Of a DNA stretch of 52,256 bases, positions 7,893-51,893 are shown in pieces (the stretch's first letter is position 1; every line of letters begins with the position of its first letter). Where the stretch lies: contig SYMW01000008.1 in assembly GCA_005805305.1 (NCBI GenBank), positions 1 to 52,256 on the forward strand, written 5' to 3'. The notes below the pieces were generated by a model. That model had not been told where the DNA came from. It saw only the letters and a program-made list of their open reading frames with translations, and ran no database searches. The DNA comes from Verrucomicrobiales bacterium. GTDB lineage: Bacteria > Verrucomicrobiota > Verrucomicrobiia > Limisphaerales > F1-80-MAGS106. Made by a program: the position numbers and the translations under genes.

Positions 7893-8052
7893 CCTTAAAA
7901 CGGCAGTTGCTCATCGTACAGACTTGCAAAAGCCAGGATGAGAAAGGTTTGACGAAGAGCGAGGCATATTTTTTATGCATCTGGCGAGTGATTTGGAAAA
8001 ATTTTACCCCCAGTATCTTGCGAAGATAAAACAGGGACAACTGACGTTCTCA
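7893..8052 (+). repeat. Family-1 imperfect palindromic repeat, copy A
   Basis: ccttaaaacggcagttg...caactgacgttct; aligns along its length with copies B-D. Confidence 0.8.
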
Positions 8053-8162
8053 GGATCATCCTTCTACGGCCGCAAATCCGCCACACGCGGCGATCTCCGA
8101 CCGAAGACCGCTCTCCGCTTTTCAGGCTTGCGCAAGGCCCAGCCCAGGCACAAATTCAAGGC

Positions 8163-9539
8163 ATGATCTCCCGCGCTCCGATTTGCTCCGCCCCGTCTCG
8201 CGTGATCCTGGCGCTACTTGTTCTTGCCGCCGGCGCCGGCGCCGAGGAAACAGGTTTCAGACAGATCTTTGACGGCTCAACTCTCGGGGGCTGGCATGTG
8301 AGCGCGAAAACCGGGCACAGCCGTGCCAGCGGCAACAAGACCGGAGGAAAATGGGAGGTCAAAGAAGGCGCGTTGACAGGCGCCCAGGACATCGTCGGGA
8401 ATGGAGGCATCATCCTCACGGACGAATTGTTCGATGATTTTGAGGTGGCCCTTGAGATGAACAACGACTACGGGCCGGACAGCGGGCTCTTTCTTCGAAG
8501 CACCGAGGATGGAACCGCATTTCAAGCGATGATTGACTATCATTCCAATGGGAATTTGATGGGGCTCTACGGGGAGGGAAAACTCGGGGCGCGACCCAGC
8601 GTCCGAAATTTTTCTTTCCTGGGCCCAGTCACCGAGATCGCCGCAGAACCCGCTCCGTTTGCGCTCCCTGTGAAAGCGGAGTCTTGGGCTCATTTCTGGC
8701 GGCATGGACAATGGAACGAGTTGCGGGCTCGCATAGTGGGTAATCCTCCCACGATTGCCACGTGGATCAATGGAGTTCAGTTCATGCAATGGACCGAGAC
8801 CGAACGCCGCCACCCCGACTCCGGCGCCATTGGATTGCAAGTGCATGGGGGAGGCGATTTCACCAAACAATTCGTTCGCTACAGAAATATCCGGGTCAAG
8901 AGGATCCCCAGGGACAATTCCCTTTCGGATGAAGAGCGGAAAGCGGGCTGGCATCTCCTCTTTGACGGAAAAACGCTTGAGGGATGGATGACCAGCTCCA
9001 AGCAGCCCAGCAAAACTCCAGTGGAAGAATCCAGCCTCAATCCGCACAAGAGTGGCCATTACATGCTGGTGCATGAGAGACCCTGGACCAATTTCGTCCT
9101 CGCGTTGGATTTCAAAATCAGCAAGGGGTGCAACAGCGGCATTTTTATCCGCACCTCCTCGCTCACCCCGCGGCCAGGAAAAGATGTGGGCTTCAATGGA
9201 ATCGAAATAGCGATTGACGACACCCTCGGAGCGGGATTCCACGATACGGGCGCGGTTTATGACTTGGCCAAGCCTTCCCGAAATGCCATGAAACCCGCGG
9301 GGCAATGGAATCATATCGAGATCACGAGCCAAACCAACTCAATCAGCGTGCGCGTGAACGACGAACTCGTCACCAAAATGAACGGCAACCTCTTCAAAAA
9401 AGCGAACCGCCGGCCGGACGGCAGCGAACACAAATTCGACATCGCCTTCGCGGATCATCCGCAGTCGGGCTTCATCGGACTCCAAGATCACGGAAGCCCT
9501 TGTTGGTACAAGAACATCAAGTTGCGTCCGCTGCCTTGA
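8163..9539 (+). CDS. Tandem DUF1080 (3-keto-disaccharide hydrolase-like) secreted protein
   Basis: Two DUF1080-like halves: FRQIFDGSTLGGWHV... and WHLLFDGKTLEGWMTS...; signal-like N-terminus. Confidence 0.85.
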   Translation: MISRAPICSAPSRVILALLVLAAGAGAEETGFRQIFDGSTLGGWHVSAKTGHSRASGNKTGGKWEVKEGALTGAQDIVGNGGIILTDELFDDFEVALEMNNDYGPDSGLFLRSTEDGTAFQAMIDYHSNGNLMGLYGEGKLGARPSVRNFSFLGPVTEIAAEPAPFALPVKAESWAHFWRHGQWNELRARIVGNPPTIATWINGVQFMQWTETERRHPDSGAIGLQVHGGGDFTKQFVRYRNIRVKRIPRDNSLSDEERKAGWHLLFDGKTLEGWMTSSKQPSKTPVEESSLNPHKSGHYMLVHERPWTNFVLALDFKISKGCNSGIFIRTSSLTPRPGKDVGFNGIEIAIDDTLGAGFHDTGAVYDLAKPSRNAMKPAGQWNHIEITSQTNSISVRVNDELVTKMNGNLFKKANRRPDGSEHKFDIAFADHPQSGFIGLQDHGSPCWYKNIKLRPLP

Positions 9540-9540
9540 A

Positions 9541-9706
9541 CCTTGGAATGGCAGCTGCCCAAGGCGAATCTCGGCAAGATCCGGGCGGTATAGTTTTTCC
9601 GAATCACTCACCGGATCCACGGGAGATAGGCCTCCCTCTTCGTCACGCTTTTCTCGTCCGGCGTAGTTGCAGATCTCCACGAGGTTCAACTGCCGTTTTA
9701 AGGTTC
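9541..9706 (-). repeat. Family-1 imperfect palindromic repeat, copy B
   Basis: Inverted relative to copy A; cagctgcccaaggcgaatc...gttcaactgccgttttaaggttc. Confidence 0.8.
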
Positions 9707-9721
9707 AAAGAACACGACTGA

Positions 9722-9896
9722 TCAGACCTCAGAAAAGAAGGGAGGGGATTCGTTGCCAACCAATCGTTTTCCATTTGCTTGAAACCCTCATTGCAACCAG
9801 CTCCCTCGCCCCATCCGATGGGGAGAGAGGCGTGTTTCGAGGGAAATGAACACCCAATTCTTTTACACAAATGGCCTCGGAAATACTGAGGTCTGA
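9722..9896. repeat. 175-bp element bounded by 11-bp perfect inverted repeats
   Basis: TCAGACCTCAG (9722-9732) and CTGAGGTCTGA (9886-9896); internal hairpin ccccatccgatgggg. Confidence 0.55.
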
Positions 9897-9899
9897 CTC

Positions 9900-10868
9900 A
9901 TGATTCCTGATATTACTTCGCCTCCCGCGGTTGGCACGGTGGTCCGTCCGGTGACTTTCGTGGAGGCACCGCGTTTGGGCCGGCGTTTGGGAGTGGAACT
10001 CACGATCGCGAGCGAGACGTTTCAGCACACGGGAAGCTTCAAATTCCGCGCGGCTTATCATCTCGCGTCTCAGGTCCCCCAGCGACTCTTCATCACTGCT
10101 TCGTCGGGAAACTTTGGCCAGGGATTGGCTCGCGCCTGCCAAATGTTAGGGAAGAATTGTATCGTCGTCATGCCTGACACATCGGCCGATATCAAGATCG
10201 ATGCAGTCCGGGAGTTCGGCGGCCAGGTGGAGTTGATCGACGTGACGCAAACTTCACGCGCGGCTCGAGTGAGTGAATTGGCGACGATCCACAGCGGCGC
10301 CTACGTCGCCAGCCCGTATGACGACGCCCTGGTTATCGAAGGAAATGCCACCCTGGGTTTGGAACTGGCGGCTTCGGGCAGATCCTTCGACGCCGTCCTC
10401 GCGCCCATTGGAGGCGGCGGCTTGGCATCGGGCATCATACAAGGTCTCCGCGCCGGCGGCAGCCAGGCACAAGTTCATGGAGCCGAACCGGCGTCGGCCA
10501 ACGACGCCGCGCGCTCTCTACGTTCCGGCCGCCTTGAATCGAATGAAACGGAACCGGCCACCATCGCCGATGGTGTCCGGACACTGAGCCTCGGCCGGCT
10601 GAACTGGATGATTCTCAGGGATAGCCTGAGGGGCATCGTTGAAGTCACCGAGGATCAGATCAAGGAATCAGTGCGCCTCTTGTTTTCGCTGGCCAACCTG
10701 AAAGTGGAGCCTACCGGCGCCCTGAGCTTGGCCGCCATTCTCGCCTCCCCGGATGCTTTTCGTGGGCAATCCGTTTGCTGCATTGCCAGCGGCGGCAATG
10801 TAGACCAGGCAGTCTTTCGCGACGTGCTCGCTGGCAAGATTCAGGATTCGAAATCCGCTCCGTCCTAG
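9900..10868 (+). CDS. PLP-dependent threonine/serine dehydratase-like enzyme
   Basis: TGSFKFRAA PLP-lysine motif; ASSGNFGQGLA; IGGGGLASG glycine loop. Confidence 0.85.
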   Translation: MIPDITSPPAVGTVVRPVTFVEAPRLGRRLGVELTIASETFQHTGSFKFRAAYHLASQVPQRLFITASSGNFGQGLARACQMLGKNCIVVMPDTSADIKIDAVREFGGQVELIDVTQTSRAARVSELATIHSGAYVASPYDDALVIEGNATLGLELAASGRSFDAVLAPIGGGGLASGIIQGLRAGGSQAQVHGAEPASANDAARSLRSGRLESNETEPATIADGVRTLSLGRLNWMILRDSLRGIVEVTEDQIKESVRLLFSLANLKVEPTGALSLAAILASPDAFRGQSVCCIASGGNVDQAVFRDVLAGKIQDSKSAPS

Positions 10869-10907
10869 GGTCCTTGGTAATTCTAGAAGAAGACTGCAAC
10901 AAATGCT

Positions 10908-11900
10908 ATGAGAACTGGCTTCTTTGCTGGATGGACCAATGTAAACCTGGCAAACCCCCAACCTATGAAAACGCGCTTCCGACTCCTCCCCACACTCTCC
11001 ATGATCGCCCTCCTGGTCTTCATCACCGGAGGTCGAACACAAGCCGCCAATGCCGAAAGGCGCGAGCACAAAGAACTCCCCGTCGCCAAAGCAGGCACCC
11101 TGACATTCAAGGCCATGGTCGGTTCGATCGAAATCAGAACCGCCAATCAGGAGCAAGTAACCTTCGACTCGGTTATCAAACGTGGAGGATGGGGGCTCAG
11201 CCTTCCGAGCGATTTGATCGAGTTGGTTGAGTTCCATTACGAAACCTCCGGAGCGGATGCAAAAATCGAGGTGAAGTGGAAAGCCAACCGAGGTCCTCGA
11301 TTCTCAAACTTGAACGTCCGGCACACACTGATCGTCCCGACCCATTACAATGTTGATGTCAGCACCGCGGGAGGCAGCATCCAATCGGACAACATCGGCG
11401 GCAACGTCGTAGCGGCCACATCGGGTGGGCGAATTCAACTGTCGAAAGTCGGCGGCCAAGTGAAAGCTCGGACCAGCGGTGGCAGCATCGCCTTGGAGAA
11501 GGCTCTCGGGGACGCCGACTTGAGAACCTCAGGTGGCAGCATCAAAGTGGGACTGGTCGATGGCCGCGTGAATGCTTCAACTTCTGGCGGCAGCATCTCC
11601 GTGGAAGGCGCCAAGGGGAATCTGCGCGCAAGAACTTCTGGAGGCTCCGTCAGCGCGTCGGTTGCCAGTCAAATCAATTCCCCTCTCGAACTCAGCACGT
11701 CAGGGGGAAGCATCCGCCTGACGGTGCCCTCGGATTTCCGAGCTGATTTGGACGCCAGCACTTCCGGAGGCGGCGTGTCCTGCGACCTGCCGGTCGATGG
11801 CTCTGTGAAACGAAACTTCATTCGCGGCAAGCTCAACGGCGGCGGGCCCCAAGTCACGCTCAGAACATCGGGAGGGAGTGTCCGGGTTTCGACACACTGA
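10908..11900 (+). CDS. DUF4097-like secreted beta-repeat protein
   Basis: Recurrent TSGGS(I/V) repeats; signal peptide (alternative start 10965, MKTRFRLLPTLSMIALLVF). Confidence 0.75.
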   Translation: MRTGFFAGWTNVNLANPQPMKTRFRLLPTLSMIALLVFITGGRTQAANAERREHKELPVAKAGTLTFKAMVGSIEIRTANQEQVTFDSVIKRGGWGLSLPSDLIELVEFHYETSGADAKIEVKWKANRGPRFSNLNVRHTLIVPTHYNVDVSTAGGSIQSDNIGGNVVAATSGGRIQLSKVGGQVKARTSGGSIALEKALGDADLRTSGGSIKVGLVDGRVNASTSGGSISVEGAKGNLRARTSGGSVSASVASQINSPLELSTSGGSIRLTVPSDFRADLDASTSGGGVSCDLPVDGSVKRNFIRGKLNGGGPQVTLRTSGGSVRVSTH

Positions 11901-12315
11901 AGGATGCTTGCTTCGGGCGTTGCTTCCATCCGCCAGGGAACTTCATCGGTCCGCCAGACTCTTCGATTTCTCGCTATTTCAGCGGAGTGAAGTTATTGCC
12001 GAGAGCCAATGGCGGACGCCTGGCTGCCGTGCTCGCTGCTGCATTGTCCCGATTCTAATCCAGAACTTCGAAACTCCGAAAACCTTCGAACGATGAACCT
12101 TCCCATTGTTGTCCTTCAGAGTTAGCATTGATCAACTTACAGACAATGAACGGGAACGAGCGTTTTTTGGTTTACTTGACGGCGAAAGTCTTACCCCATC
12201 CGAATCGGGTGCCATCCGGCTCCGGGCGCCGCGCAACCAACCGCCGTTGCCCGCCCATTCTCAGGTTTTGCTTCTGTTTGTTCAGGCATCTGCGCACTCC
12301 AGTATCAATACTCCT

Positions 12316-14076
12316 ATGCATTGGCTCTCACTTCTTTGTGTCTTGCTTCTTGTGGCGGCCTGCCCACAGGCCGTGAACGCCGCTCTGTCCGAAGGGCTTG
12401 TGGGCCACTGGAAGCTGCAAGGCGATTGCCGCGATCACTCCGGCAACGGAAACCACGGCGTCAATCATGGCGTCGGCTTGGGTAATGGCCAGCACGGGGT
12501 GTTCGATGGTCAGAGAGCGTTTATTGAAGTGCCCGCGAGCAACTCTCTGCAACTCGGAACCGGCAACTTCTCCTTCAGCGTGTGGATTCATACGGAGGCT
12601 CAAGTAGACGATGCCATCGGGGATGTGCTCGACTGTTACGACCCTTCCATCCGCAGGGGAATCACCCTCTCCGTCAACTCAAGCGCCAGTGGCTATCAAT
12701 CCCAGGGAACCGATCGACATGTCTACTTTGGCATCGACAATGCGAAGTTGGGCGAATGGGAGGACTGCGGTCGCCCGAGTCCCACGAGCCCCTATGTGTT
12801 CAACTCGATGGTGGTCTTCAAAGGGCGCCTTTATGCCGCCACGAGCGAAGGAGCCACGGAGGCCGACTGGCGCCATGTCTACCGCTATGAAGGTGGAAAA
12901 AGGTGGATGGACTGCGGACGCGTCGGCGACCGACGCAACACGGGAGTCGGGCCACTCGTCGTCCACCAGGGCGCGTTGCACGCGGTGACCACCACGTATG
13001 ACTGGACTCGAGTGCGGGAGGACGGTTTCGACCCAGGCCGGGTGTATCGTTATGCAGGCGGGACGAATTGGGTCGACCTAGGCGCACCCAGCGCCGCCAA
13101 CCGGACCCTCAACTGCGCCGCGAGTTTTATGGGCAAACTCTACGTTGGTGGCGGTCCAAAATCGTGGGGCGTCTCGGCGATTCAGGACGACGGCTCATGG
13201 AAGGAATCCATTCAGTTTCCCATGAAAGGCTCCAGAAAATGTTTTCCGCACACGATGTCCCGGCACAACGGCCGGCTCTTCGTCGGTTGGCCGAGCGTGT
13301 ATTCATTCGATGGCAGGGAGTGGCGTTATGCCGGGGTGCCCAGCGAGCCCGAGAGCACCTTGCAGACTCATAGTTTGGCGATTTTCCAAGGCCACCTCAT
13401 CGCGGGCACGTGGCCGCTCGCAAAAGTAGCGAGGCACCTCGGAGAAGAAAAATGGGAGGAGCTGGGGCGTGTCGGAGAAGACGGCACGGAGGTCAATTCG
13501 TTGCTGGTCTACAACGGAGCCCTTTACGGCGGCTCCATCCCGCGCGCGGAAATCTGCCGCTACGATGGAAAAACTCAATGGACATCGTTGCGCCGGTTCC
13601 ATTCCCCCGCGGGCTGGACCCCTGTGCCGCCCACAGAAAATGGCGGCAATCCAACGAGGGAACAGGTTGCGGAATGGAGCCGGGTGACCAGCTTGACCGT
13701 GCATCGCGGACGCCTCTTCGCCAGCATCGGCAATTGCACCAGCTCCAGCAAGGATTCCCCCGCCGACATCCGAGGCACAGTCCACAGCCTGGAGGCAGGC
13801 AAATGTGTTTCCTACGACGAGGAATTGGCGCCGGGCTGGCGTCACCTGACCGCCGTGCGCCACGCGAATCGCCTGCGACTGTACGTGGACGGCCAACTCG
13901 CCGCCGAGTCCTCCGCCTTCAATCCTGCTGAATTCGACCTAACCACGCGGCGCCCCTTGCGGCTCGGGTTTGGCCAGACAGATTATTTCAACGGGAAGAT
14001 GAGTGACATGCGCGCCTACAACCGGGCGCTCACCAATGAAGAAATCCGCTCCCTGGCGGACGCCAAACCCCTGTGA
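12316..14076 (+). CDS. Secreted LamG/concanavalin-like protein with an internal kelch-like propeller
   Basis: Signal MHWLSLLCVLLLVAACPQAVNA; LamG-type GNHGVNHGVGLGNGQHGVFDGQ at the N-end and WRHLTAVRHANRLRLYVDGQL...MSDMRAYNRALTNEEI at the C-end; repeated GRLYAAT/GALHAVT/GKLYVGG blades between. Confidence 0.7.
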   Translation: MHWLSLLCVLLLVAACPQAVNAALSEGLVGHWKLQGDCRDHSGNGNHGVNHGVGLGNGQHGVFDGQRAFIEVPASNSLQLGTGNFSFSVWIHTEAQVDDAIGDVLDCYDPSIRRGITLSVNSSASGYQSQGTDRHVYFGIDNAKLGEWEDCGRPSPTSPYVFNSMVVFKGRLYAATSEGATEADWRHVYRYEGGKRWMDCGRVGDRRNTGVGPLVVHQGALHAVTTTYDWTRVREDGFDPGRVYRYAGGTNWVDLGAPSAANRTLNCAASFMGKLYVGGGPKSWGVSAIQDDGSWKESIQFPMKGSRKCFPHTMSRHNGRLFVGWPSVYSFDGREWRYAGVPSEPESTLQTHSLAIFQGHLIAGTWPLAKVARHLGEEKWEELGRVGEDGTEVNSLLVYNGALYGGSIPRAEICRYDGKTQWTSLRRFHSPAGWTPVPPTENGGNPTREQVAEWSRVTSLTVHRGRLFASIGNCTSSSKDSPADIRGTVHSLEAGKCVSYDEELAPGWRHLTAVRHANRLRLYVDGQLAAESSAFNPAEFDLTTRRPLRLGFGQTDYFNGKMSDMRAYNRALTNEEIRSLADAKPL

Positions 14077-15146
14077 ACCACCCAGTCGAACCACCCAACC
14101 GTCGCCAATTACATCCACTCTGCACCAGGCTGTGCGCCGTGGCGTTTCTGATGGCGGCCTGGTTCCCGGAGCCGCTCCCGCTCCGCGCGGCGGATCCCCT
14201 GCCATCCGGTCCGGGACTCGCCGCGAAATATCCCGGAGACGCGGGGATCGAGAAGGATCCTCGCGTGCTGCTGGTGGAGAGGTTTGAACAACCGGACATC
14301 GCGACCCTGGCCGCGCAGTGGGAGACCGTAAGCGCCAGGGGCGACATGCGATTCGATCGTGACGTGCCCCCCGGCAGTTCGGGAAAACAATCCCTGATCA
14401 TGCATCGGCAATCCGGGCCGGGCGGCTCTCTTTATCGCCGATTGAAGAACGTGAAAGGCGGCTATGGCCACGACCGCGTGTTTGCCCGCTACCACGTGAA
14501 GTTCTCTGAAGAAAGCGGCGAGTTGCATCATTTCGGAACCTGCCTCGGCGGAAACTTCCCGGCAACTCCTTGGCCGAGCGTCAAGGCGGGCATCCGCAAC
14601 GACGGCGGAAAATCGTTTTGGTCGGGCATCGAGCCGTTCGGCAAGTCGTGGACCTGGGATTTCTACACCTACTGGTGCGAGATGCGTGGAAGCCCGCCGC
14701 GAGGCCAAACGTGGGGCAACAGTTTTATTCGTGACCCGGATCTCTCGGTGGCGCGCGGGCGCTGGATTTGCATCGAACACATGATCCGCATGAACGACCT
14801 CGGGGATTCGAACGGAGAGCAGGCTTTGTGGCTCGATGGCAAGCTCATCACACATCTCGGCAAGGGCTTCCCCAGAGGGCGCTGGACTTTTGATAAATTC
14901 GAGCCAGGCAAGAGCGGCGATGGAGTCCGCTGGAACGACGCGAAAAACGATCGCGAGCATTTCAAAGTGCCTGAGGGTGGCGCGCCGTTCGAGGGCTACC
15001 GATGGCGCACGGTCCCCGAGCTGAATGTGAACTTTGTTTGGCTGTACGTGTACACCCAAAAGGAACCGGGCCACCGCATCCAGGTCGGGTATGATGACGT
15101 CGTCATCGCCACCGATTACATTGGGCCGCTCGCGGCCAAACCTTGA
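14073..15146 (+). CDS. Secreted hypothetical protein, possibly polysaccharide-lyase/jelly-roll-like
   Basis: GTG start overlapping the preceding stop (GTGA); hydrophobic signal; no confidently recognised motif. Confidence 0.6.
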   Translation: MNHPVEPPNRRQLHPLCTRLCAVAFLMAAWFPEPLPLRAADPLPSGPGLAAKYPGDAGIEKDPRVLLVERFEQPDIATLAAQWETVSARGDMRFDRDVPPGSSGKQSLIMHRQSGPGGSLYRRLKNVKGGYGHDRVFARYHVKFSEESGELHHFGTCLGGNFPATPWPSVKAGIRNDGGKSFWSGIEPFGKSWTWDFYTYWCEMRGSPPRGQTWGNSFIRDPDLSVARGRWICIEHMIRMNDLGDSNGEQALWLDGKLITHLGKGFPRGRWTFDKFEPGKSGDGVRWNDAKNDREHFKVPEGGAPFEGYRWRTVPELNVNFVWLYVYTQKEPGHRIQVGYDDVVIATDYIGPLAAKP

Positions 15147-15166
15147 ACCTCGTCGACATCCACTCC

Positions 15167-16444
15167 ATGAACCGCCGCGCTTTTCTTTCAACGGCCACCC
15201 TTGGTTCCGCAGCCGCGCTGCCACTCGCCTCGCAGAACTACTCGGACTACACCAACGATCCGCGGCCCGATGTCGCGGAGGGAACTTATACGGCGGGCGC
15301 GACCCAGGGGCCGGTCTTCGCCGGCAATCCGGTCGTGGCGGGGCCATCGCCGGATGCCACCTCAGTTCTGCAACCGCTCCAGCGCGATGCGACGGGCTGG
15401 CTTGAATTCGCCGTGGAAGACGATCCTTGGAGGCGCGTGGACGCGGGGGAGGCCGGCTTGCTGCCTTTCAACAAGCATGTGCTGAAATTTCAACTGCCGC
15501 CACTGCCTCGTGGAAAGATCGTGCGCTACCGATTGACCGCGCGAACCGCAGGCTGGATCAAAGTGAAGCAATTCTATCATGGCGAACTGAAAGTAGGCGA
15601 GCCGCAGGCGAGTCCCGAATACTCCTTCCGCACTCTGGACCCCGCCGCCTCTTCGACGACTTTCGTTGTTTGGAATGACACCCACGAAAACCCGGAGACG
15701 CTTCGGGCCCTGAACGAGCAGACGGCCGCGGTGAAGCCGGATTTCCTGCTTTGGAACGGAGACCAATCAAACGATGCCCACTTCGAGAAAGACATGGCCG
15801 GCCAGTTCCTCATGCCCGCGGGACTGGCCATTGCGGATCGCTGGCCCTTGGCGTACGTGCGGGGAAACCACGATGTGCGGGGCCCTGCGGCTCGCAGCCT
15901 CCCCGAGTTCACCGGCACGCCGGGCAATCGATTTTACTACGGATTTCGCAGCGGTCCCCTCGCCGCGCTGGTCATGGACACGGGCGAGGACAAGCCCGAT
16001 GATAGCCCCTACTTTGGAGGAATGGCCGCGTTTCAGCAAATGCAGCGGATTCAGTCAGAATGGCTGAAGCAGATCGTGAAGGAGTCATGGTTTCGGGACG
16101 CGCCTCACAAGGTGCTGTTCTGCCACATCCCGCTTTGGTTTACCCGGGACATTTTTCCAACCCAAAGGAGGTGGGAATGCCACTCCTATTGCCGGGATCT
16201 CTGGCTTGAAACGCTCGTCAATGCCGGAGTGAAACTGGTGGTCTCCGGCCACACTCACACGCACCGATGGATGCCTGCGAAGGATGGCCAACCCATCGCC
16301 CAGCTCATCGGCGGCGGGCCTGAACCGGATGCTGCAACGATTATTCAAGGCACCGCCACAGCCCAAGAACTCAAGTTCAAGATGGGCAAACTGAACGGCA
16401 TCGTGCTGGCCGAAACGACACTCAAATCAAACCGCGCGCTCTGA
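15167..16444 (+). CDS. Metallophosphoesterase with Tat-like signal
   Basis: MNRRAFLSTATLG; VVWNDTHENPE, WNGDQSND, YVRGNHDVRG, VSGHTHTHRW metal-ligand motifs. Confidence 0.85.
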   Translation: MNRRAFLSTATLGSAAALPLASQNYSDYTNDPRPDVAEGTYTAGATQGPVFAGNPVVAGPSPDATSVLQPLQRDATGWLEFAVEDDPWRRVDAGEAGLLPFNKHVLKFQLPPLPRGKIVRYRLTARTAGWIKVKQFYHGELKVGEPQASPEYSFRTLDPAASSTTFVVWNDTHENPETLRALNEQTAAVKPDFLLWNGDQSNDAHFEKDMAGQFLMPAGLAIADRWPLAYVRGNHDVRGPAARSLPEFTGTPGNRFYYGFRSGPLAALVMDTGEDKPDDSPYFGGMAAFQQMQRIQSEWLKQIVKESWFRDAPHKVLFCHIPLWFTRDIFPTQRRWECHSYCRDLWLETLVNAGVKLVVSGHTHTHRWMPAKDGQPIAQLIGGGPEPDAATIIQGTATAQELKFKMGKLNGIVLAETTLKSNRAL

Positions 16445-16498
16445 CTGTGCTGTCCGTGGCCGGGAGGGCCTTGCACCGCCCGCAACCGAGCGGACATC

Positions 16499-17233: not shown

Positions 17234-17330
17234 TGGACCTGCTTATCAAAAGGATCTCCATGAGTCAAATCCCGTGGCGCTCTTCGAACGAAACCCACTG
17301 CGTCGTCGGAGCGACAACGCGAAAGCCCAG

Positions 17331-30786: not shown

Positions 30787-30960
30787 TCGTGAAATGGGGT
30801 GTGAGTGGGTGAAGAGATTTTAGACGGACGTTCATCGCCGAGCCATGAAGCAGCATCGCGGGGGGGGGTGGTCTGAGTCAGGACCGTTGTCTGTCACGAC
30901 GGACGGGACGACGGGTAGGTTGGGCCATTTTCACGTTCCATTCCCGCGCAATCTGTTATT

Positions 30961-31123
30961 CTCAAAACGGCAGTTGAACCTCGTGGAGATTTGCAAAAGC
31001 CTGGATGAGAAAGGTTTGACGAAGAACGAGGCATATCCCTTGTGGATCTGGTGAGTGATTCGGAAAATCTTTATCCCCAGGATCTTGCGAAGATTCGCCA
31101 GGGGCAACTGCCGTTTTAAGGGT
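30961..31123 (+). repeat. Family-1 imperfect palindromic repeat, copy C
   Basis: caaaacggcagttg...caactgccgttttaag: 13-bp perfect inverted ends (aaaacggcagttg). Confidence 0.85.
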
Positions 31124-31336
31124 TATCGCCCCGTTCCGAAGGGCGTCCTTTGGGATGCCCGATGACCGTTGACTGGATTCCCACCCACATTTCTTGGAAG
31201 CATGAAAACAGCCAGTGTTTCACCAACCGAACGACTGCAGGCACACCGGCCACATTCATGCTGTCTTTCGAACGGAACCTCTGCGAATTTTAAAACTCGA
31301 AGGCAGCGCGCCTGAAACACCAACTCGATCAGACAT

Positions 31337-40063: not shown

Positions 40064-40094
40064 AGCAATTCGTTGACTTGACAAATGGCGATCA

Positions 40095-40134: not shown

Positions 40135-40135
40135 C

Positions 40136-42384: not shown

Positions 42385-42418
42385 GTGCCTGGTCTTTTAA
42401 TTAGTGAGTTCCTCTGAT

Positions 42419-42446: not shown

Positions 42447-42494
42447 CCGACCGTGGTTTCCGTGCAGCGCACAAAACGTTAAATTCTATCTATT

Positions 42495-42974: not shown

Positions 42975-43000
42975 GTTTCAGATCTCTTGTTCGGCCACCG

Positions 43001-43035
43001 GCCGGCGCCTGAATTCTAAAAGGATTCACGCCGGC
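43001..43035. terminator. Candidate bidirectional terminator hairpin between convergent peroxiredoxin and glcF
   Basis: GCCGGCG-cc-TGAAT-tctaaaagg-ATTCA-CGCCGGC (7+5 bp stem, 2-nt bulge); no strong U-tract. Confidence 0.45.
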
Positions 43036-44282
43036 AGGTGCGCCGCCAAAAAGTCGGCGATGTGCATGACTTGAGTCGCACGGTTTTTAGCCGACTCAAG
43101 TCCGGCTTTCATCTGCAGCAAGCAGCCCGGATTTGATGTGACAACGATATCCGCCCGGGATTCGAGGATGTGCCCGATCTTCCGGCGACGGAGCCGTCCG
43201 GCCATTTCGGGTTGGGTGAGATTGTAACTCCCCGCGCTGCCGCAGCACACGTCCGATTCCGACATCTCCACGTAGCCGCCGCGGGCCACATGCCGCACGA
43301 GTCTTCTCGGAGCTTCCGTGATTCGTTGGGCATGGGCCAAGTGGCAGGCATCTTGATAAGTGACTCTTCCAAATCGAGGAGGCAGCCAGTCGATGCACTC
43401 CGGCTCAATCATTTCGGACAAATCTCGAGCTTTGGCGGAAAAAGCCATCGCTGACGGCGCCCATCGAGGATCGTTCGAGAGCAATTGGCCGTATTCCTTC
43501 AAAGTGGATCCACACCCGGCCGCATTGATGACCACGGCCTTCAAGTCAGGCGCGTTGAACGAGCCCAGATTATGGGCGGCGCACCGTCTTGCTTCCGCCA
43601 TGTTCCCGCCATGGGCAAAAAGCGCGCCGCAGCAGCCCTGAGCCTCCGGGACGACGACGTCAAAGCCCGCCCTCTGCAACAATCGTATCGTGGACCTGTG
43701 GGTTTCCCTGAACATCACGTCCATGACACATCCAACAACCAACGCGACCGTGCCTCGCGAAGGGTCTCTGGCAGTCTGCGAAAAAGGAGGAAGACTCTCT
43801 TGTGCAGGGCGATGCGGATCGACAAATGCCAGGGGCTCCCGCAAGCCAGCGGGTAGGAATCGATCCATTGCCGCGGCCTTGATCCAACGGGCGGGCGTCA
43901 GGGCAATTTCCATGCGCTCGGGATGCGGCAGAATCCCTTCGATGAACACTTTGGTGAGGAGGGTCTCCATCCACCCCCGCGGAACTGAACGGTTGATGTG
44001 CTCGCGTGTCTCCTCAAGCAGTTCTCCGTAACGCACGCCGCTTGGGCACGCGGCTTCGCAGGCCCGGCATCCCAGGCATGTGTCAATCGCACTCGCGCTG
44101 GCCTCTGTGACCGGCACGGCGCCCTTGTCCATGGCGCGCATCAAGTAAATGCGCCCGCGGGGCGACAGATTTTCATTACCGGTTTCCAAATAAGTCGGGC
44201 ACGACGCCAAGCACAAGCCGCAATGAATGCAGGCGGAAGCTTTGCGGTTGTCGAGAAAACCGCCTGGCCGGTCAGTGTTCAT
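43026..44282 (-). CDS. glcF: Glycolate oxidase iron-sulfur subunit
   Basis: Two CxxCxxCxxxCP clusters (CIHCGLCLASCP, CLGCRACEAACP); CCG domains with CCGALFAHGG and CCGSAGSYN. Confidence 0.88.
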   Translation of the reverse strand: MNTDRPGGFLDNRKASACIHCGLCLASCPTYLETGNENLSPRGRIYLMRAMDKGAVPVTEASASAIDTCLGCRACEAACPSGVRYGELLEETREHINRSVPRGWMETLLTKVFIEGILPHPERMEIALTPARWIKAAAMDRFLPAGLREPLAFVDPHRPAQESLPPFSQTARDPSRGTVALVVGCVMDVMFRETHRSTIRLLQRAGFDVVVPEAQGCCGALFAHGGNMAEARRCAAHNLGSFNAPDLKAVVINAAGCGSTLKEYGQLLSNDPRWAPSAMAFSAKARDLSEMIEPECIDWLPPRFGRVTYQDACHLAHAQRITEAPRRLVRHVARGGYVEMSESDVCCGSAGSYNLTQPEMAGRLRRRKIGHILESRADIVVTSNPGCLLQMKAGLESAKNRATQVMHIADFLAAHLPA

Positions 44283-45238
44283 AGCAGCGGAGGCAGCGAT
44301 GGTAAAATGTGGTTCGGATCAAACGCCATCTTGGCTCGTGTTTCCAGTCGTGTGCTGGGCGGCTCGTGCCCAGGGTCTCTGATTTCCGCGGTGTAGAGAA
44401 CGCCGTTTCCCGCCCTGGCCAAAAAGGGCATCGAAGCGAGGCCGGCAATCGCTGCCGCCAGGCCCGTGGGAACTACAGACACCCGCCGCGTCATGAGGCG
44501 TGAGCGCGAGATCCAGAAATCGCGGTCGTAAGAAAGGTCCGAAGGCTTCGAAAACCCAAGCGCAGCCGCGTGATGCGCTTGCCACGCCACCTCCGCCTCT
44601 GTTCCGGAGAAGCCCAAGACCACCATCATCCCATTCCCGGACGTCAGGGATGGTCCGCCACGCCAACAATCGATGATGGACGGGCGAAGGCTCGAGCTCC
44701 TAAGGCTGGCGAGGACCGAACTCAGTTCATCGACTGAAGCGCAGTTCTTTCCGAAGAACAGCTCCGCTCGTGGCCGGGGAAGGAGCTTGAAAGTCGCTTC
44801 AACAATGATTCCGAGAGCGCCGCCCGCTCCAATGAAGAGTTTGCCCAAATCGTAGCCGGCCACGTTCTTGACCACTTTTCCCCCGGTACGAATCAAGGAT
44901 CCGTCCGCCAGCGCCACTCGAAGCCCAAGCACATAGTCGCGAGCTTTGCCAAACCCGAACCGCCGCGGTCCATTGAGATCATGATTCAACACGTCGAGCA
45001 CAGTCAGTGTTTCGGGAAGCGCGGGATCCAGGGGAACCCACTGGCCTCGTTCCCCCAATGCGTGTTGCAGAGTGTCCAACCGCATGCCCGATTGAACCGT
45101 GGCGGTGAGATCCTCCGGACAGTGCTCGACGATTCGGTTAAAATGGGACAAGTCCACGCACTCGACCGGGGTCCGCTCGCGCGAAGCCTTGGCGAGTTGA
45201 GTGCCCAGCTCGATCTCGGTCAGGGGTTCGAGTCGCAT
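44279..45238 (-). CDS. glcE: Glycolate oxidase FAD-binding subunit
   Basis: RFGFGKARDYVLGLRVALADGSLIRTGGKVVKNVAGYDLGKL typical of GlcE; likely start MRLEPLTEIEL at 45238. Confidence 0.85.
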   Translation of the reverse strand: MRLEPLTEIELGTQLAKASRERTPVECVDLSHFNRIVEHCPEDLTATVQSGMRLDTLQHALGERGQWVPLDPALPETLTVLDVLNHDLNGPRRFGFGKARDYVLGLRVALADGSLIRTGGKVVKNVAGYDLGKLFIGAGGALGIIVEATFKLLPRPRAELFFGKNCASVDELSSVLASLRSSSLRPSIIDCWRGGPSLTSGNGMMVVLGFSGTEAEVAWQAHHAAALGFSKPSDLSYDRDFWISRSRLMTRRVSVVPTGLAAAIAGLASMPFLARAGNGVLYTAEIRDPGHEPPSTRLETRAKMAFDPNHILPSLPPLL

Positions 45239-45242
45239 GGGA

Positions 45243-46703
45243 TCAAACGGAAATCTGACGGCGAGGCGCGAAATCCATGCAACGTTTGCCATTCGGAAAC
45301 ATTTTGTGAGGATTGCAGCGATGAAGGGGATCGAACATCCGGCGCAACGAGCGCATGGCGTCGAGATCGGGCTGGGAAAATTGTTTCTCCATGAAATCCG
45401 CTTTTTCCACACCGATGCCATGCTCTCCTGACACACTGCCCCCGAGTTCGAGGCAGCGCTCGAGAATCCGGTTCCCCGCCTGGACTGCGCGTTTGACTTC
45501 ATCGGGGTTGGATTCATCGTAGAGAATCAGGGGATGAATGTTGCCATCTCCCGCGTGAAACACGTTGGGAATCCTCAATCCAAATTCCGCGCTGGTGTGC
45601 TGGATGAACCGCATGATCTCGGGCAGTTTCGAGCGCGGCACGACTCCATCCTGAGTCAGAAAATTGGGGCTCAATCGGCCGATGGCGCCAAATGCCCGCT
45701 TGCGGCATTTCCAAAGATCGGCCCTCTCCTTGTCCGTGCGGGCGCGGCGCACTTCGGTGGCGCGATTGGCCTTGCAGAGCCGCTCCACTTCCATCGCCTG
45801 TTGCTCCAATCCCTCCTCGAGCCCGTCAAGTTCCACGATCAGCAACGCTCCCGCATCCAGGGGGAACCCGAAATGGTAGGCGGCTTCAACCGCCTGGGTG
45901 ATGAGCTGATCCATCATTTCAAGTGCCGCCGGCACAATCCCCGAAGCGATGATGTCGCTGACGGCTTGGCTGGCATCATCGACGGAAGCAAACACGCCCA
46001 GGAGGGTTCGCCAAGACTGGGGAATTTGGCTCAAATTCACAACGACGCGGGTGACGATGCCAAACATGCCTTCGGAGCCGATCACGGCGCCGCGAAGATC
46101 AAGACCGCCTGTCTCCTCCCCTCCTTCCAGAGTCGTTCCCAGCCACACGATCTCACCGTCTGGGAGGACCATCTCCAAACCAAGCACATGATTGGTCGTG
46201 ACCCCGTATTTCAGCGTGTGCGGCCCGCCGGAATTTGTGGCGACATTCCCTCCGATCGTGCAAGCCGTTTGGCTCGATGGATCGGGAGCGTAAAGGAGGC
46301 CTGCCGAACGTACCGCGTTGGTGATCCAAATGTTGACGCAGCCGGCTTCCACGAGCGCTCTTCGATTTTCCAAATCAACCTGCTGCACCTGGTTCATCCG
46401 CGTCAAAGAGATGACCACCGCGTTTTCTATCGGGAGGATGGCGCCGCTCAAATTCGTGCCCGCGCCCCGGGGGATGAAGGGGGCCTGGTGCTTGTTGCAG
46501 CAGCGAACGATCTCCGCCACTTCAAACGGGGAATTTGGCAAGACCACGATCGATGGAATTTTCTTCTCAAGAGTGTAGGCATCGCATTCATACACAAGCA
46601 ATTCCAAGGGATCGGAGAGGATTTGAGGGCTCCCGAGGATCAGCCGCAAATCCGCCAACAGAGCCGATTCATCCTGTGTTGCGCGGTGCATGCCCAGCTT
46701 CAT
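45243..46703 (-). CDS. glcD: Glycolate oxidase subunit, FAD-linked
   Basis: PFIPRGAGTNLSGAILP; NVATNSGGPHTLKYGVTTNHVLGLEMVLPDGE; GEHGIGVEKADFM. Confidence 0.9.
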   Translation of the reverse strand: MKLGMHRATQDESALLADLRLILGSPQILSDPLELLVYECDAYTLEKKIPSIVVLPNSPFEVAEIVRCCNKHQAPFIPRGAGTNLSGAILPIENAVVISLTRMNQVQQVDLENRRALVEAGCVNIWITNAVRSAGLLYAPDPSSQTACTIGGNVATNSGGPHTLKYGVTTNHVLGLEMVLPDGEIVWLGTTLEGGEETGGLDLRGAVIGSEGMFGIVTRVVVNLSQIPQSWRTLLGVFASVDDASQAVSDIIASGIVPAALEMMDQLITQAVEAAYHFGFPLDAGALLIVELDGLEEGLEQQAMEVERLCKANRATEVRRARTDKERADLWKCRKRAFGAIGRLSPNFLTQDGVVPRSKLPEIMRFIQHTSAEFGLRIPNVFHAGDGNIHPLILYDESNPDEVKRAVQAGNRILERCLELGGSVSGEHGIGVEKADFMEKQFSQPDLDAMRSLRRMFDPLHRCNPHKMFPNGKRCMDFAPRRQISV

Positions 46704-46793
46704 AAAGCCCCGCGAATTATTTGGCCACACCTTTATTCCGGGCCTTGGGACTTTCTATTGCCGCACGCCGCGAGGTTGGTCTAAGTTTTCAGA

Positions 46794-47954
46794 ATGATAT
46801 CGATCAACCCTTTCAATCCACCGTCGCGCTTGCTGATGGGCCCCGGCCCGAGCGACGTGCCTCCTTCGGTTTTATTATCGATGGCTCGCCCCGTTTTGGG
46901 CCACCTCGACCCCGTCTTTGTCGGGATGATGGAGGAACTGAAAGGGATGCTGCGCGAGGTCTATCAAACGGCCAACGACATGACATTCCCGGTCAGCGGC
47001 ACCGGCAGCGCCGGGATGGAGTTTTGCCTGGTGAATCTGATCGAACCGGGCGATGAAGTGATCATTGGTGTCAATGGAGTCTTCGGAACTCGCATGGCGG
47101 ACGTGGCGAGCCGCTGCGGAGCGAAAGTGATCAAAGTCGAATCGCCCTGGGGCACGATCATCACGCCGGAACAGATCGCCCAAGCCCTGGTTGGGCGAAA
47201 CCCCAAACTGGTGGCCGTGGTGCACGCTGAAACCTCCACCGGCGCGCTGACACCCGTGGAAGAAATCTCGCGGCTGTCGCGCGAGGCGGGAGCGCTCTTC
47301 GTTCTGGATGCCGTCACTTCGCTCGCGGGCTGCCCCGTGCGGATCGACGCCTGGGGAGTGGACGCGGTCTATAGCGGCACGCAAAAATGCTTGAGCTGCC
47401 CCCCCGGGCTGTCGCCGGTATCCATGAGTGCCCGCGCCGTGGAAACCGCGGCTCGTCGCAAATCCAAAGTCCAGAGCTGGTATCTGGACGTGAACCTGCT
47501 GGCGGCTTATTGGGGCCAAGACAGGGTCTACCATCACACGGCTCCCATCTCCATGAATTACGCCCTGCACGAAGCGCTCCGGCTCGTCCTGGCGGAGGGC
47601 CTCGAATCGAGATGGCGCAGACATGAGCAAAACCACGGCATGCTCAAGCGCGCTCTGGAAGCCATGGGCCTCTCGTTCGCCGCGCAACCAGGTCATCAAC
47701 TGTGGCAACTGAACGCCATCAGCGTGCCCGAAGGGATTGAAGAATCCGTCGTCCGCCGCCGCTTGCTCCTTGAGGACGGCATAGAGATTGGCGCTGGCTT
47801 GGGGCCGTTGAAAGGCAAGATCTGGCGCGTCGGCCTGATGGGCGCCACGTCCACGGGAGCAAACGTGCGCCGGTTTGTGGCGGCTTTCGGCCGGATTTTG
47901 AAAGACTGCGGAAACCGCTGCGACGTGGCGGCCGCCCTCAAAGAGTGCGCTTGA
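46794..47954 (+). CDS. Alanine-glyoxylate / serine-pyruvate aminotransferase-like (class V)
   Basis: LLMGPGPSDVPPSVL; VVHAETSTGALTPV; DAVYSGTQKCLSCPPGLSPVS (PLP lysine). Confidence 0.88.
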   Translation: MISINPFNPPSRLLMGPGPSDVPPSVLLSMARPVLGHLDPVFVGMMEELKGMLREVYQTANDMTFPVSGTGSAGMEFCLVNLIEPGDEVIIGVNGVFGTRMADVASRCGAKVIKVESPWGTIITPEQIAQALVGRNPKLVAVVHAETSTGALTPVEEISRLSREAGALFVLDAVTSLAGCPVRIDAWGVDAVYSGTQKCLSCPPGLSPVSMSARAVETAARRKSKVQSWYLDVNLLAAYWGQDRVYHHTAPISMNYALHEALRLVLAEGLESRWRRHEQNHGMLKRALEAMGLSFAAQPGHQLWQLNAISVPEGIEESVVRRRLLLEDGIEIGAGLGPLKGKIWRVGLMGATSTGANVRRFVAAFGRILKDCGNRCDVAAALKECA

Positions 47955-48014
47955 TCCTCAGGGCAATCCCGTCGGCGCCCCTGAAAATTGGAGGCGTCAG
48001 TGGGTACGACCCTC

Positions 48015-48881
48015 TTATTTTGAGGAAACACCGCGGAGATAAGAAAGGATCAATTCGGGCAATTGGGTGCTGTAACCCCCTTCCAAAACGCTCAGCATGG
48101 GAATGCCGAGTTTTGCCAGGGATTTGCCGATCCACTCGAAGTCCTCGGCCTCAAGGGTTTCCTGGGCCAGCGGATCGCGTGCGTAGGCATCGAACCCGGC
48201 GGAGACAAGAATGAGCGCGGGTTTGGCGGCGGACATGCCCGCGATGGCTTTTCCAATGATCTTGCGATAATCCTCGCGAGGGGTGCGGGGAGGGACGGGA
48301 AAATTAAAGCAGTTCTTGCCCACGTCGGAAGTGCCCGTTCCAGGATAGCACGGGTGTTGGTGGATGGAGTAAAACGAGGTGTTGGGGTGGTTCAGCAAGA
48401 TGGCCTCCGTTCCGTTTCCGTGGTGCACGTCGAAATCGAACACGGCCACGCTTTTCGAGCCGGTTTCAAGCGCCTCGAGAGCCGCCACGGCGATGGAGTT
48501 GAAGTAGCAAAAGCCCATTGCGTGATTCCGCGTGGCATGATGGCCGGGGGGGCGCAGAAGGCTCAACGAAGGCTCCCCGGCGCGCGCGCAATTCAAGGCC
48601 CGCAATGCGCCCCCCACGCTGCGTTTGGCGTGGATAAAGATGTCCGGATGATTCGGAGTGTCATTATCGAATGGATCACGGGCGGCTTTCACCTGAGCCA
48701 CATGCTCCGCCGTGTGAGCCCGCAAGATGGTTTTCTCGGGCGCCTCGCTCGGCTCCAGCCACTCCAGCGCGAGTTCGGTCTGGGTCTTTAGGTGATCGAC
48801 GGTCCTCGAAATCCTCGCCGGCCTTTCGGGATGTCCCGGCGATTGATAAGTCGTGCAGTCTTTGTGCGTGATGATTTTCAT
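48015..48881 (-). CDS. Histone deacetylase / acetoin-utilisation family protein
   Basis: LRPPGHHATRNHAMGFCYFN; VFDFDVHHGNGTE; SAGFDAYARDPLA. Confidence 0.92.
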   Translation of the reverse strand: MKIITHKDCTTYQSPGHPERPARISRTVDHLKTQTELALEWLEPSEAPEKTILRAHTAEHVAQVKAARDPFDNDTPNHPDIFIHAKRSVGGALRALNCARAGEPSLSLLRPPGHHATRNHAMGFCYFNSIAVAALEALETGSKSVAVFDFDVHHGNGTEAILLNHPNTSFYSIHQHPCYPGTGTSDVGKNCFNFPVPPRTPREDYRKIIGKAIAGMSAAKPALILVSAGFDAYARDPLAQETLEAEDFEWIGKSLAKLGIPMLSVLEGGYSTQLPELILSYLRGVSSK

Positions 48882-48902
48882 CGAGAACTCCGTCGGTGGC
48901 CG

Positions 48903-49880
48903 CTATCGCGCGATCTCGCCACGAATTCTTTCAAGCAATCTCCGCGTGGCCCAAACACCCTCGAGCTCGCTGAGATTCCGGCCTTCGTATTCTATCCCCA
49001 CGTACCCATGATAACCGGCCTTGAGCACGATCTTCAACATCCGTCGATAATCCGTGTGGATCTCGTTGCCGTTGAAGTCAAAATCATGCGACTTGGCGCT
49101 CACGGCCTTGGCAAAGGGCATCATTTCCTCCACCCCCTTATAGCGGTCGTAAACCTTGCCGTTCCCGAGGTCGAAATTGCCAAAGTCAGGAAGCGTGCCG
49201 CAGTTCGGCAAGTTCACGAGCTTCATGACGCCGGCAAGCCAGCTCCCGTTTGACGAGAGGCGTCCATGGTTCTCCACGAGGCAGTTCAAACCGAGCGTCG
49301 AACAGTATTGGGAAAGCTGGGTCAGGCCGTCGGCGGCTCGCTTTTGCTGGTCCTCGAAACTGCCGACTCCTCGAGTTTCCGCGTTGACTCGGATGGAATG
49401 GCATCCAAGAAACTTCGCGGCGTCGGCCCATTTGCGATGGTTCTCCACCGCTCGCGCGATTCTCTTGGCATCCGTATCGCCCAGATAGCCTTCGTCATCG
49501 CACATGATGAGCAGTATTCTGACCCCCTCGCCATCAGCTCGGCTCTTGAACTCGGCGAGATAGCGTCGATCCCGGGCCCGGTTCTTGAAGAACTGATTGA
49601 CGAGCTCGATGGCGTCCACGCCGCACATGAGCTTCGCCGTTTGTGGGAACTGCATGTGGGTCGTGCGGTTCGCAAGGAGAGACCGGTGAAACGACCATTC
49701 GGCGAGGGATATCTGAAAAGGCTCCTGGCGTTGAGCCATTAAAGACGTTCGCCAACCAACGGCGGTGGAGGCCAGAGCGACTGTCGAATGGGCCAAAAAC
49801 GAGCGCCGATCCAGTGTGCCCCCAACGCCGACTCGCGTCCTCGGGCGAGTCTTCGGGTTCAATTGCGGTTGCGTGTTCAA
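48903..49880 (-). CDS. Sugar phosphate isomerase/epimerase-like (AP-endonuclease-2 fold) with Tat-like signal
   Basis: DRRSFLAHSTVALASTAVG; LVENHGRLSSNGSWLAGVM; GYVGIEYEGRN. Confidence 0.82.
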   Translation of the reverse strand: MNTQPQLNPKTRPRTRVGVGGTLDRRSFLAHSTVALASTAVGWRTSLMAQRQEPFQISLAEWSFHRSLLANRTTHMQFPQTAKLMCGVDAIELVNQFFKNRARDRRYLAEFKSRADGEGVRILLIMCDDEGYLGDTDAKRIARAVENHRKWADAAKFLGCHSIRVNAETRGVGSFEDQQKRAADGLTQLSQYCSTLGLNCLVENHGRLSSNGSWLAGVMKLVNLPNCGTLPDFGNFDLGNGKVYDRYKGVEEMMPFAKAVSAKSHDFDFNGNEIHTDYRRMLKIVLKAGYHGYVGIEYEGRNLSELEGVWATRRLLERIRGEIAR

Positions 49881-49901
49881 CAGGCGCGGTGGTTTCGCCG
49901 A

Positions 49902-51221
49902 TCAATGCGCGGGCGCCGAACCTCCTCCGGCGGCTTGGGGCGCCTTCTTGGAAGGCGGATGGAAAAACAGCGCCAGCGCGATCGCCGCGATGAGAGCCGT
50001 CGCACAGGGCAGGAGGAACAATCCCTTAAAATCCGTGACGCCGTTTGTGGTGAACATATTTTGCAGCAACCACGGACAAATGGAATTAGCCACCAGCGCC
50101 CCGACCCCCAAAATCATGACGTTAAACAGCCCCTGCGCGCTCGAACGCACGTCCTTGGGAAAGTGTTCGTCCACGAAGATGTACACCGTGGCAAAGAAGA
50201 AGGCGTAACAAATTCCGTGAAGGACGTTCACCAGGACGATGAGCGCTTTGTGCTCGGGGAGAAACGCGAACACGGCAAACCTGCCCGCATGCCCCAGGAT
50301 CCCAATGACCATCGTCTTCTTCCAACCAAGCGCCTTCAGGCAGGCGCCCAGGACGAACATGGTCGCAATTTCAGCCAGTTGTCCGATGCTCATGACGGGC
50401 ATGATCCAGTTGCCGGGAATCCCCACTTGCGCACTCCCCAGAAAAGTGCCAGTCCAGTTAAAATAGCAGTTGTGGACGAAGGCATCCACGAACGTAATGA
50501 TCCATAGAATGAGGACGAAGGGATGCTTCAACAGCCGCGTCGCCTCAAGCCAAGCCAGGCTTTCCGACCCCTTCGAAGCCGGCTTCGGCGGAGTGTGCGG
50601 CAGGATCAAACTGAAGAGCGCCAGCAGAATGGAGGCAACTCCCGCGACGATGAACGTCCATTTCGTTGCCTGTTGCAATGCGGGCCCGGTCAATCCGGAA
50701 GCCAGCACGGTTCCAAGCCATTCGACGAACCCATTCGGATTCGCGGCATTCACTTTTCCCCAGTCAACGAGAATAAAAGTGAACGGCCAGGCAGCCAATA
50801 TCCATCCGATCGTGCCTCCCATGCGGATAATCCCGAATTCGTTCTGGGGATCCTTCATGTTCGCGAACGCAATCGAATTAGTGATGGAAATCGTGGGCAC
50901 GTAAAGGAGGCAGTGGACAAGCATGAGCAGGAAGAATGGCCAAAATGTATTGACGAAGCCCAATCCGAGCATTGCCACGCCTCCCACCAAATGGCTGAAA
51001 GCGAGGAACTTCTCAGCCGCGAAATTTCGATCCGCGAACTGGTTGCTGAAAAACATGCCCACGATGGCGGCGACGGGAAAAGCGTTCAAAATGAATGCCT
51101 GTTCCGTCGGCGAGAACCCCAAGCTCGGCAAGTAGCCGAAAATAAGGGGCAGCCAAGCGCCCCAAATAAAAAACTCCAGGACCATCATGAGGAAAAGCTT
51201 CAGTCGAATAGTTTGATTCAT
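49902..51221 (-). CDS. MFS transporter, nucleoside:H+ symporter-like
   Basis: Likely start MNQTIRLKLFLMMVLEFFIWGAWLPLIFGYL at 51221; about 12 TM segments. Confidence 0.82.
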   Translation of the reverse strand: MNQTIRLKLFLMMVLEFFIWGAWLPLIFGYLPSLGFSPTEQAFILNAFPVAAIVGMFFSNQFADRNFAAEKFLAFSHLVGGVAMLGLGFVNTFWPFFLLMLVHCLLYVPTISITNSIAFANMKDPQNEFGIIRMGGTIGWILAAWPFTFILVDWGKVNAANPNGFVEWLGTVLASGLTGPALQQATKWTFIVAGVASILLALFSLILPHTPPKPASKGSESLAWLEATRLLKHPFVLILWIITFVDAFVHNCYFNWTGTFLGSAQVGIPGNWIMPVMSIGQLAEIATMFVLGACLKALGWKKTMVIGILGHAGRFAVFAFLPEHKALIVLVNVLHGICYAFFFATVYIFVDEHFPKDVRSSAQGLFNVMILGVGALVANSICPWLLQNMFTTNGVTDFKGLFLLPCATALIAAIALALFFHPPSKKAPQAAGGGSAPAH

Positions 51222-51293
51222 AGGCTGTGGGCGCATGCTAGTGGACTTCGCCCCAGGGAGGCAAGACAGGAACTCACGACGCTGCGCGGGGCA

Positions 51294-51450
51294 GTGCATC
51301 CGCAGGTTGACGGTGAATTTGGCTGGCAGCCCGGAGCGCGGTTGTGTGCGAGGCACCAGCCGCAGCAGGTTTGGCGTGATAGCGAGCCTGAGATGCTGCT
51401 GCGACTGGCTTTCAGCACAGTCGCGCTCCACCGACAACTCGCGGATGCAC
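51294..51450. repeat. Family-2 imperfect palindrome (~157 bp)
   Basis: Left arm GTGCATCCGCAGGTTGACGGTGAA...GGAGCGCG...CCAGCCGCAGCAG; right arm (minus strand) GTGCATCCGCGAGTTGTCGGTGGAGCGCG...CCAGTCGCAGCAG. Confidence 0.7.
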
Positions 51451-51730
51451 CATGCGCGGGGTTCCGCTCGTGAAAGCACCGGCGAACCATCCCCGAAGGC
51501 TCAAGGCTGGCTCTTTGGGAAACAACCGCCTGGTGTTGCGTATCGCGGAGAATCCGGGGAAGTTTATACAGAAATCTGCGGAGATTGAGTATGGGTCGAA
51601 GGGAGTGGCGTTGGATTTTTCGCGCTGAACAGCTCCGTCAGAAGCGTTGGCCGCGCGACAGTGGGGCCGCCCCAATTTCTTTGCTGCTAAGGAGGGCTCA
51701 AAGTTCTCCGACCGCCCGTTCAACCTTGGA

Positions 51731-51893
51731 CCTTAAAACGGCAGCTGAACCCATTGAAGATGCGCAACAGCCTGGATGACAAAGGCTTGAGGAAGAGGGA
51801 GGCATATCCCTTGTGGATCTGGCGAGTGATTCGGAAAGATTTTATCGCCAGGATCTTGCGAAGATTCACCATGGGCAACTGCCGTTTTATGGT
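51731..51893 (+). repeat. Family-1 imperfect palindromic repeat, copy D
   Basis: ccttaaaacggcagctg...caactgccgttttat; aligns along its length with copy C. Confidence 0.85.

Follow-up and report, generated by a model that had tools for sequence, protein, structure and literature searches.

A high-copy hairpin element of a Verrucomicrobiales bacterium with IS1380-type ends and a fold subject to compensatory change between lineages

Introduction

Insertion sequences (IS) of the IS1380 family, which mobilise resistance genes via ISEcp1, start with CC and duplicate 4–5 bp of their target. Correia, NEMIS, and ERIC elements duplicate TA, and some of them have been described as acting on neighbouring mRNAs. 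The target duplication of ISEcp1 is 5 bp (PMC2887853), and the transposition pathway of the IS1380 family has been described as unknown (PMC9330008). The units of repetitive extragenic palindromic (REP) sequences and bacterial interspersed mosaic elements (BIMEs) are 20–40 bp long (PMC3733652). The subject of this study is a 162-bp hairpin element, designated family 1, which occurs in contig SYMW01000008.1 (assembly GCA_005805305.1) of a Verrucomicrobiales bacterium. The window analysed here is this whole contig of 52,256 bp; the assembly to which it belongs (G000) comprises 4.56 Mb in 319 contigs and is 82% complete.

The hairpin element is a short multi-copy unit with fixed ends and is too short to encode a transposase. 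It has in common with the IS1380 family, represented by ISEcp1 and ISPme1, the 5-bp duplication and terminal repeats beginning with CCT or CCG, as in complete IS1380 elements from the same order. However, it lacks a transposase gene and has one-tenth of the length of IS1380 elements, its conserved hairpin has no known counterpart in the IS, and the reported target of ISEcp1 is TATGA rather than NTNAN. Like Correia, NEMIS, and ERIC elements, the hairpin element is short, non-coding, intergenic, hairpin-forming, and present in high copy number with terminal inverted repeats. Unlike them, it duplicates 5 bp, goes with IS1380, is a palindrome from end to end, and exhibits covariation between lineages. 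REP sequences and BIMEs, which are associated with REP-associated tyrosine transposases (RAYTs), are also extragenic, palindromic, and numerous; however, the hairpin element is longer, has terminal inverted repeats and a target duplication, and is not linked to the RAYT genes that were checked. Tn3-derived inverted-repeat miniature elements (TIMEs; PMC4133298) are similarly non-autonomous, reduced to transposon ends, and able to form mosaics, but they derive from another transposon family with other ends and are not known to possess a conserved hairpin.

The hairpin element is a miniature inverted-repeat transposable element (MITE), unusual in that its fold is conserved and strand-specific, and no named family for it was found in Rfam or the literature searched. 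A search of Rfam at the gathering threshold did not match the hairpin element, searches of plasmids and phages gave no match, and the core pattern had no exact counterpart in viral contigs. A partial literature search did not find the end sequence in such a context, nor, with ISfinder outside its scope, a report of such IS1380 MITEs. The interiors of MITEs are usually seen as unconstrained filler. Across several bacterial families, compensatory mutation has preserved a strand-specific fold in the interior of the element described here, whereas its inserted copies decay freely. As a small, naturally occurring substrate whose structural requirement can be tested, such an element would offer a direct handle on the IS1380 pathway.

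Results and discussion

The evidence favours, with a probability of about 0.7, a MITE that is mobilised by IS1380 and that requires a hairpin formed by one of its strands for spread, not for host regulation. The element is non-autonomous and of fixed length (about 162 bp), and would be moved in trans, now or formerly, by DDE transposases of the IS1380 family. The transposase would recognise the 17-bp terminal inverted repeats and insert the element at NTNAN with a 5-bp duplication. One strand of the whole element specifies a long, imperfect hairpin in which tandem GA mismatches and an apical motif are conserved. Compensatory changes keep the shape of the hairpin in lineages that are still transposing, not in resident copies. 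The hairpin, as RNA or single-stranded DNA, would be needed for spread or safe propagation and would not be a host regulatory element.

Copy number and target duplication

The 17-bp ends of the window copies are CCTTAAAACGGCAGTTG, in inverted orientation. With up to two mismatches allowed, this end has 429 matches in the 4.56-Mb genome, compared with one for a reversed-pattern control. A profile search identified 170 copies or fragments, 128 of which span at least 100 of the 162 positions, in a 1.53-Mb sample that is enriched, as part of its contigs were picked because the end was present. The 72 full copies have a median identity of 90% to the consensus and a median pairwise identity of 82%. 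Because of the number of end matches and the observed divergence of the copies, the genome carries several hundred copies of family 1, which are probably of different ages. The first-pass annotation of the window, made from the sequence alone, had recognised at least four copies with ends resembling terminal inverted repeats; hundreds more are present beyond the window, and 17-bp terminal inverted repeats delimit the 72 full copies at both ends. The annotation had named as an outcome speaking against a mobile element that the copies might be decayed pieces of one coding gene. This candidate was rejected, as inspection by eye, without a formal coding test, revealed no consistent reading frame across the copies; nor was a coding parent found.

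Transposition of family 1 duplicated 5 bp of the target: 23 of the 72 full copies lie between exact 5-bp repeats, compared with 2.1 when flanks are shuffled. Duplications of 3, 7, and 8 bp show no excess, and those of 4 and 6 bp were found in one copy each. The target consensus is NTNAN, with TTNAA as the best form. Many family-1 copies are also present in a second genome of the genus (G002), the flanks of which are approximately 65–75% identical to those in G000 and are too diverged to provide clean empty sites. One orthologous gap measures about 64 bp in G002 and about 690 bp, including elements, in G000, with strongly diverged flanks.

Ends shared with IS1380 transposons

The CC start and the 4–5 bp duplication that characterise IS1380 were the reason why transposases of this family were searched for. 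Of 293 genomes from the order that were searched for the 17-bp end, 41 contain it with at most one mismatch, mostly on other interiors. Locus L202 is a complete IS1380 element of 1,721 bp that has CCTAAAAACGGCAGT at each end and is flanked by GTCAT on either side. Near-identical ends are present at both sides of another IS1380 element (L200) and at one end each of three IS1380 loci (L282, L284, and L286) in G001, a genome from the same genus. The proteins of L202 and L201 match DDE_Tnp_1_4 and DDE_Tnp_1. Exact 5-bp duplications conforming to NTNAN flank not only L202 but also L195 and L198 (both CTTAG) and L319 (TTGAA), which are IS1380 elements of the order with ends other than the family-1 type. 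Because it has the same ends and the same duplication as complete IS1380 elements of related genomes, the hairpin element is interpreted as a non-autonomous, IS1380-dependent MITE, in agreement with the non-autonomous MITE proposed in the annotation. An autonomous IS within G000 was considered as a source and rejected, since lone end matches proved to be truncated relics or to belong to copies that other repeats interrupt, and the IS1380 searches of this 82% complete assembly gave no match. In genome G085, an element end that seemed to match an IS1380 gene nearby faces away from this gene and was therefore disregarded.

Compensatory change between lineages and decay within the genome

The consensus folds from end to end as a single stem of 59 base pairs with an energy of −78 kcal/mol, which confirms the long hairpin that the annotation had envisaged for the whole unit. 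In the sequences from genomes G084 and G130, all pairs that changed on both sides (10 of 10 and 12 of 12, respectively) are still paired, against null values of 2.1 and 3.2. A structure-blind MAFFT alignment of 17 sequences contains 44 cells changed on both sides, distributed over 19 pairs, compared with 13.4 ± 3.3 after shuffling (0 of 500) and 5–12 in controls with slid partners. A covariance model built from this alignment was searched in 320 genomes of the order and matched 19 of them, from 13 genera, mostly with lengths of 161–164 nt. Weak matches in G054 and G039 are elements that share the ends but have other arms. In 13 sequences outside the model, 44 of the 59 pairs contain 144 cells changed on both sides (53.9 ± 5.9 after shuffling and 24–49 in slid controls), although this test is partly ascertained, as the model with which the divergent members were detected rewards pairing. 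The comparisons of G084 and G130 and of the 17 sequences are less exposed to ascertainment because their sequences came from a sequence search.

An apical motif of approximately GCATAYCC..GGWTCTGGTGAG and the GA mismatches are common to most lineages, and therefore the family looks homologous across lineages and not merely palindromic. In G131, G214, G018, and G242, the end sequence differs and the palindrome still extends from end to end; several copies in this group have exact 5-bp duplications (ttaaa, gttaa, and cttag).

By contrast, the resident copies of one genome decay freely. Among 132 copies from G000, the mean z-score of covariation at the 59 pairs is 0.02, and none of the pairs belongs to the top 1% of column pairs. 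The paired sites are kept no better than the unpaired ones (0.899 and 0.904, respectively). These results rule out a structured RNA that is selected in every resident copy. Column 21 and its partner had at first seemed to covary among the G000 copies, but this was not upheld in the 132-copy test. Covariation, which the annotation had proposed as a check, is therefore strong between lineages and lacking among copies of one genome. Since constraint at the level of lineages is combined with free decay of the copies, we infer that the hairpin would serve the mobility of the element, through its spread or propagation, rather than host biology. Its active form would be either RNA or DNA.

Strand specificity and the origin of the palindrome

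In 11 lineages, G.T pairs outnumber A.C pairs by 49 to 18, tandem GA/GA mismatches occur 29 times and TC/TC never, and the fold of the plus strand is the more stable one in 11 of 11. The lineages are related and the counts not phylogenetically independent, so the p-value of 0.0002 can serve only as an indication. Such a pattern is consistent with a single-stranded molecule derived from one strand, either RNA or one strand of DNA. The mobile structured RNA suggested in the annotation is supported in part, through the covariation between lineages and the strand-specific structure.

In the main rival explanation, which is unlikely, the element is an ordinary palindromic IS1380 MITE whose hairpin has no function, and its arms remain complementary because, in the active lineage, one is rewritten from the other by replication template switching (quasipalindrome correction). 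Such homogenisation would account for the palindromes. It agrees with the resident copies, which do not covary, and with the sequence from G084, in which some internal loops have turned into paired stretches. If palindromes arise by such a process, other elements should have them as well, and several unrelated element types with the same ends are indeed palindromic over their full length. However, the homogenisation of arms does not explain the GA/GA mismatches at positions 29–30/133–134 and the single-A bulge at position 46, which persist beside covarying pairs, and it would have no obvious strand preference, in conflict with the asymmetries described above.

Several observations weigh against an IS1380-mobilised element with a functional hairpin, in addition to the ascertainment and the relatedness of lineages already mentioned. 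Searches of G000 with NF033539 and the same-genus transposase as queries gave no IS1380 match in this 82% complete assembly of 319 contigs, and an IS1380 transposase was not found in G002 despite the many copies there. The IS1380 searches of G031 gave only fragments or weak matches. Furthermore, the hairpin element and the IS have only the 17-bp ends in common and no internal sequence, and G242 does not contribute a tandem GA signal to the strand count. The lack of a transposase in G000 and G002 is weak counter-evidence because the assemblies are fragmented and incomplete. We infer that IS1380 would have mobilised the element in this very genome in the past.

Possible exchange of ends and interiors

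Where family-1 ends enclose unrelated arms, which consist of repeats like CCACAGATGGACACAGAT or CCACGAAAGACACGAAAG, most of the elements are long palindromes too. Their stability exceeds that of shuffled controls by approximately 4–9 standard deviations; weaker cases include L169. Exact duplications, among them TTCAG, TTGAA, and GTGAC, flank several of these elements. The ends of the hairpin in G242, CCGGAACCATGCAAT with CTTAG, are unlike the family-1 type and differ by three mismatches in 15 positions from those of the IS1380 elements L195 and L198 (CCGGAACGATTCAGA and CCGTAACGATGCAGT), which are also flanked by CTTAG. Comparison of these sequences suggests a modular exchange of ends and interiors, with one clear case so far. 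A more far-reaching proposal, which is tentative and has to be regarded as doubtful, is that mobile hairpins of structured RNA or single-stranded DNA form a lineage that has persisted across several bacterial families and swapped its ends to suit different IS1380 transposases. The folded strand would take part in transposition, and the unrelated palindromic arms of other elements with these ends would be kept for the same reason.

Ten loci (L166, L167, L173, L175, L179, L180, L184, L185, L188, and L189) have the 17-bp family-1 ends around palindromes that are nearly simple repeats (CCACAGATGGACACAGAT, CCACGAAAGACACGAAAG, and GCTAATCTNCGCTNAT). Such near-simple-repeat palindromes from other genomes of the order often have a central TCACC..GGTGA. 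Palindromes with family-1 ends may account for common intergenic palindromes in Verrucomicrobiota assemblies.

Gene context

Among the scored copies of the whole genome, 87 are positioned between open reading frames (ORFs) and 30 overlap an ORF of at least 100 amino acids. Copies within 20 bp of a gene end are more frequent at 3′ ends (36 of 100) than at 5′ ends (11 of 74), and copies are enriched in convergent gaps. A regulatory RNA or terminator that serves the host, is spread by transposition, and acts on adjacent mRNAs would be consistent with these positions and with the high stability of the hairpin. Nevertheless, such a function is highly improbable. The enrichment at 3′ ends is explained equally by the loss of harmful insertions into promoters, the copies decay without their pairs being kept, and there is no orientation bias relative to tandem genes (24:26), which agrees with a role outside host biology.

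The weakest alternative, a REP- or BIME-type element moved by a RAYT (Y1 transposase), recalls the REP-like character given in the annotation and draws on the extragenic palindromes and nine Y1_Tnp (RAYT-like) matches in the genome (L288–L291 and other places), but it has next to no probability given the 5-bp target duplications, the terminal inverted repeats, the unit length of 162 bp, the presence of matching ends on IS1380 elements, and the absence of family 1 from the flanks of the RAYT loci checked, except for one fragment in L289.

Copies in the window and neighbouring repeats

All four window copies that the annotation had listed are real, with slightly corrected boundaries (Table 1). 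The end relic placed by the annotation at 661–690 matches the right end of copy C at 87% over 30 bp, which makes it plausible, if too short for proof. The statement that all copies are intergenic is nearly right: the only ORFs overlapped by copies A and D are doubtful ones of approximately 100–160 amino acids. Copy B begins right behind the stop codon of the ORF at 8163–9539.

Table 1 Family-1 elements and their target duplications in the window.
Feature	Position	Strand	Remarks
Copy A, full-length hairpin element, 162 bp	7893–8054	+	Flanking 5-mers CTCAT/ATCAT (4/5 match)
Copy B, full-length hairpin element, 163 bp	9541–9703	-	Flanking 5-mers TTGAA/TTCAA (4/5 match)
Copy C, full-length hairpin element, 162 bp	30960–31121	+	Top score among the four window copies
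Target duplication of copy C, GTTAT	Left 30955–30959, right 31122–31126	.	Exact
Copy D, full-length hairpin element, 162 bp	51731–51892	+	
Target duplication of copy D, TTGGA	Left 51726–51730, right 51893–51897	.	Exact
Probable right-end relic of family 1	662–692	-	17-bp end with 2 mismatches plus approximately 13 bp

Forms of 126 bp with an internal deletion are present at L070, L080, and L089; both ends are intact and the flanking 5-mers are direct or near-direct repeats. These shortened hairpins either moved as such or lost their interior after insertion.

The genome holds several MITE-like families, and some family-1 copies are broken up by other palindromic repeats. A different inverted-repeat element of approximately 270 bp with ends GTGTGCCGTTCACGAATT lies within a family-1 copy at L083 (8561–8829), and a further palindromic repeat with TCAGACCTCAGAATTTCTGAGG ends is inserted into the family-1 copies at L074, L096, and L100.

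The end of the window contains domain V of a group II intron (RF00029, 47 bits) at 52138–52214 on the minus strand, and the contig probably ends within this intron. A 25-bp sequence adjoining the 3′ end of the domain (52113–52137) is repeated in inverted orientation at 51429–51453.

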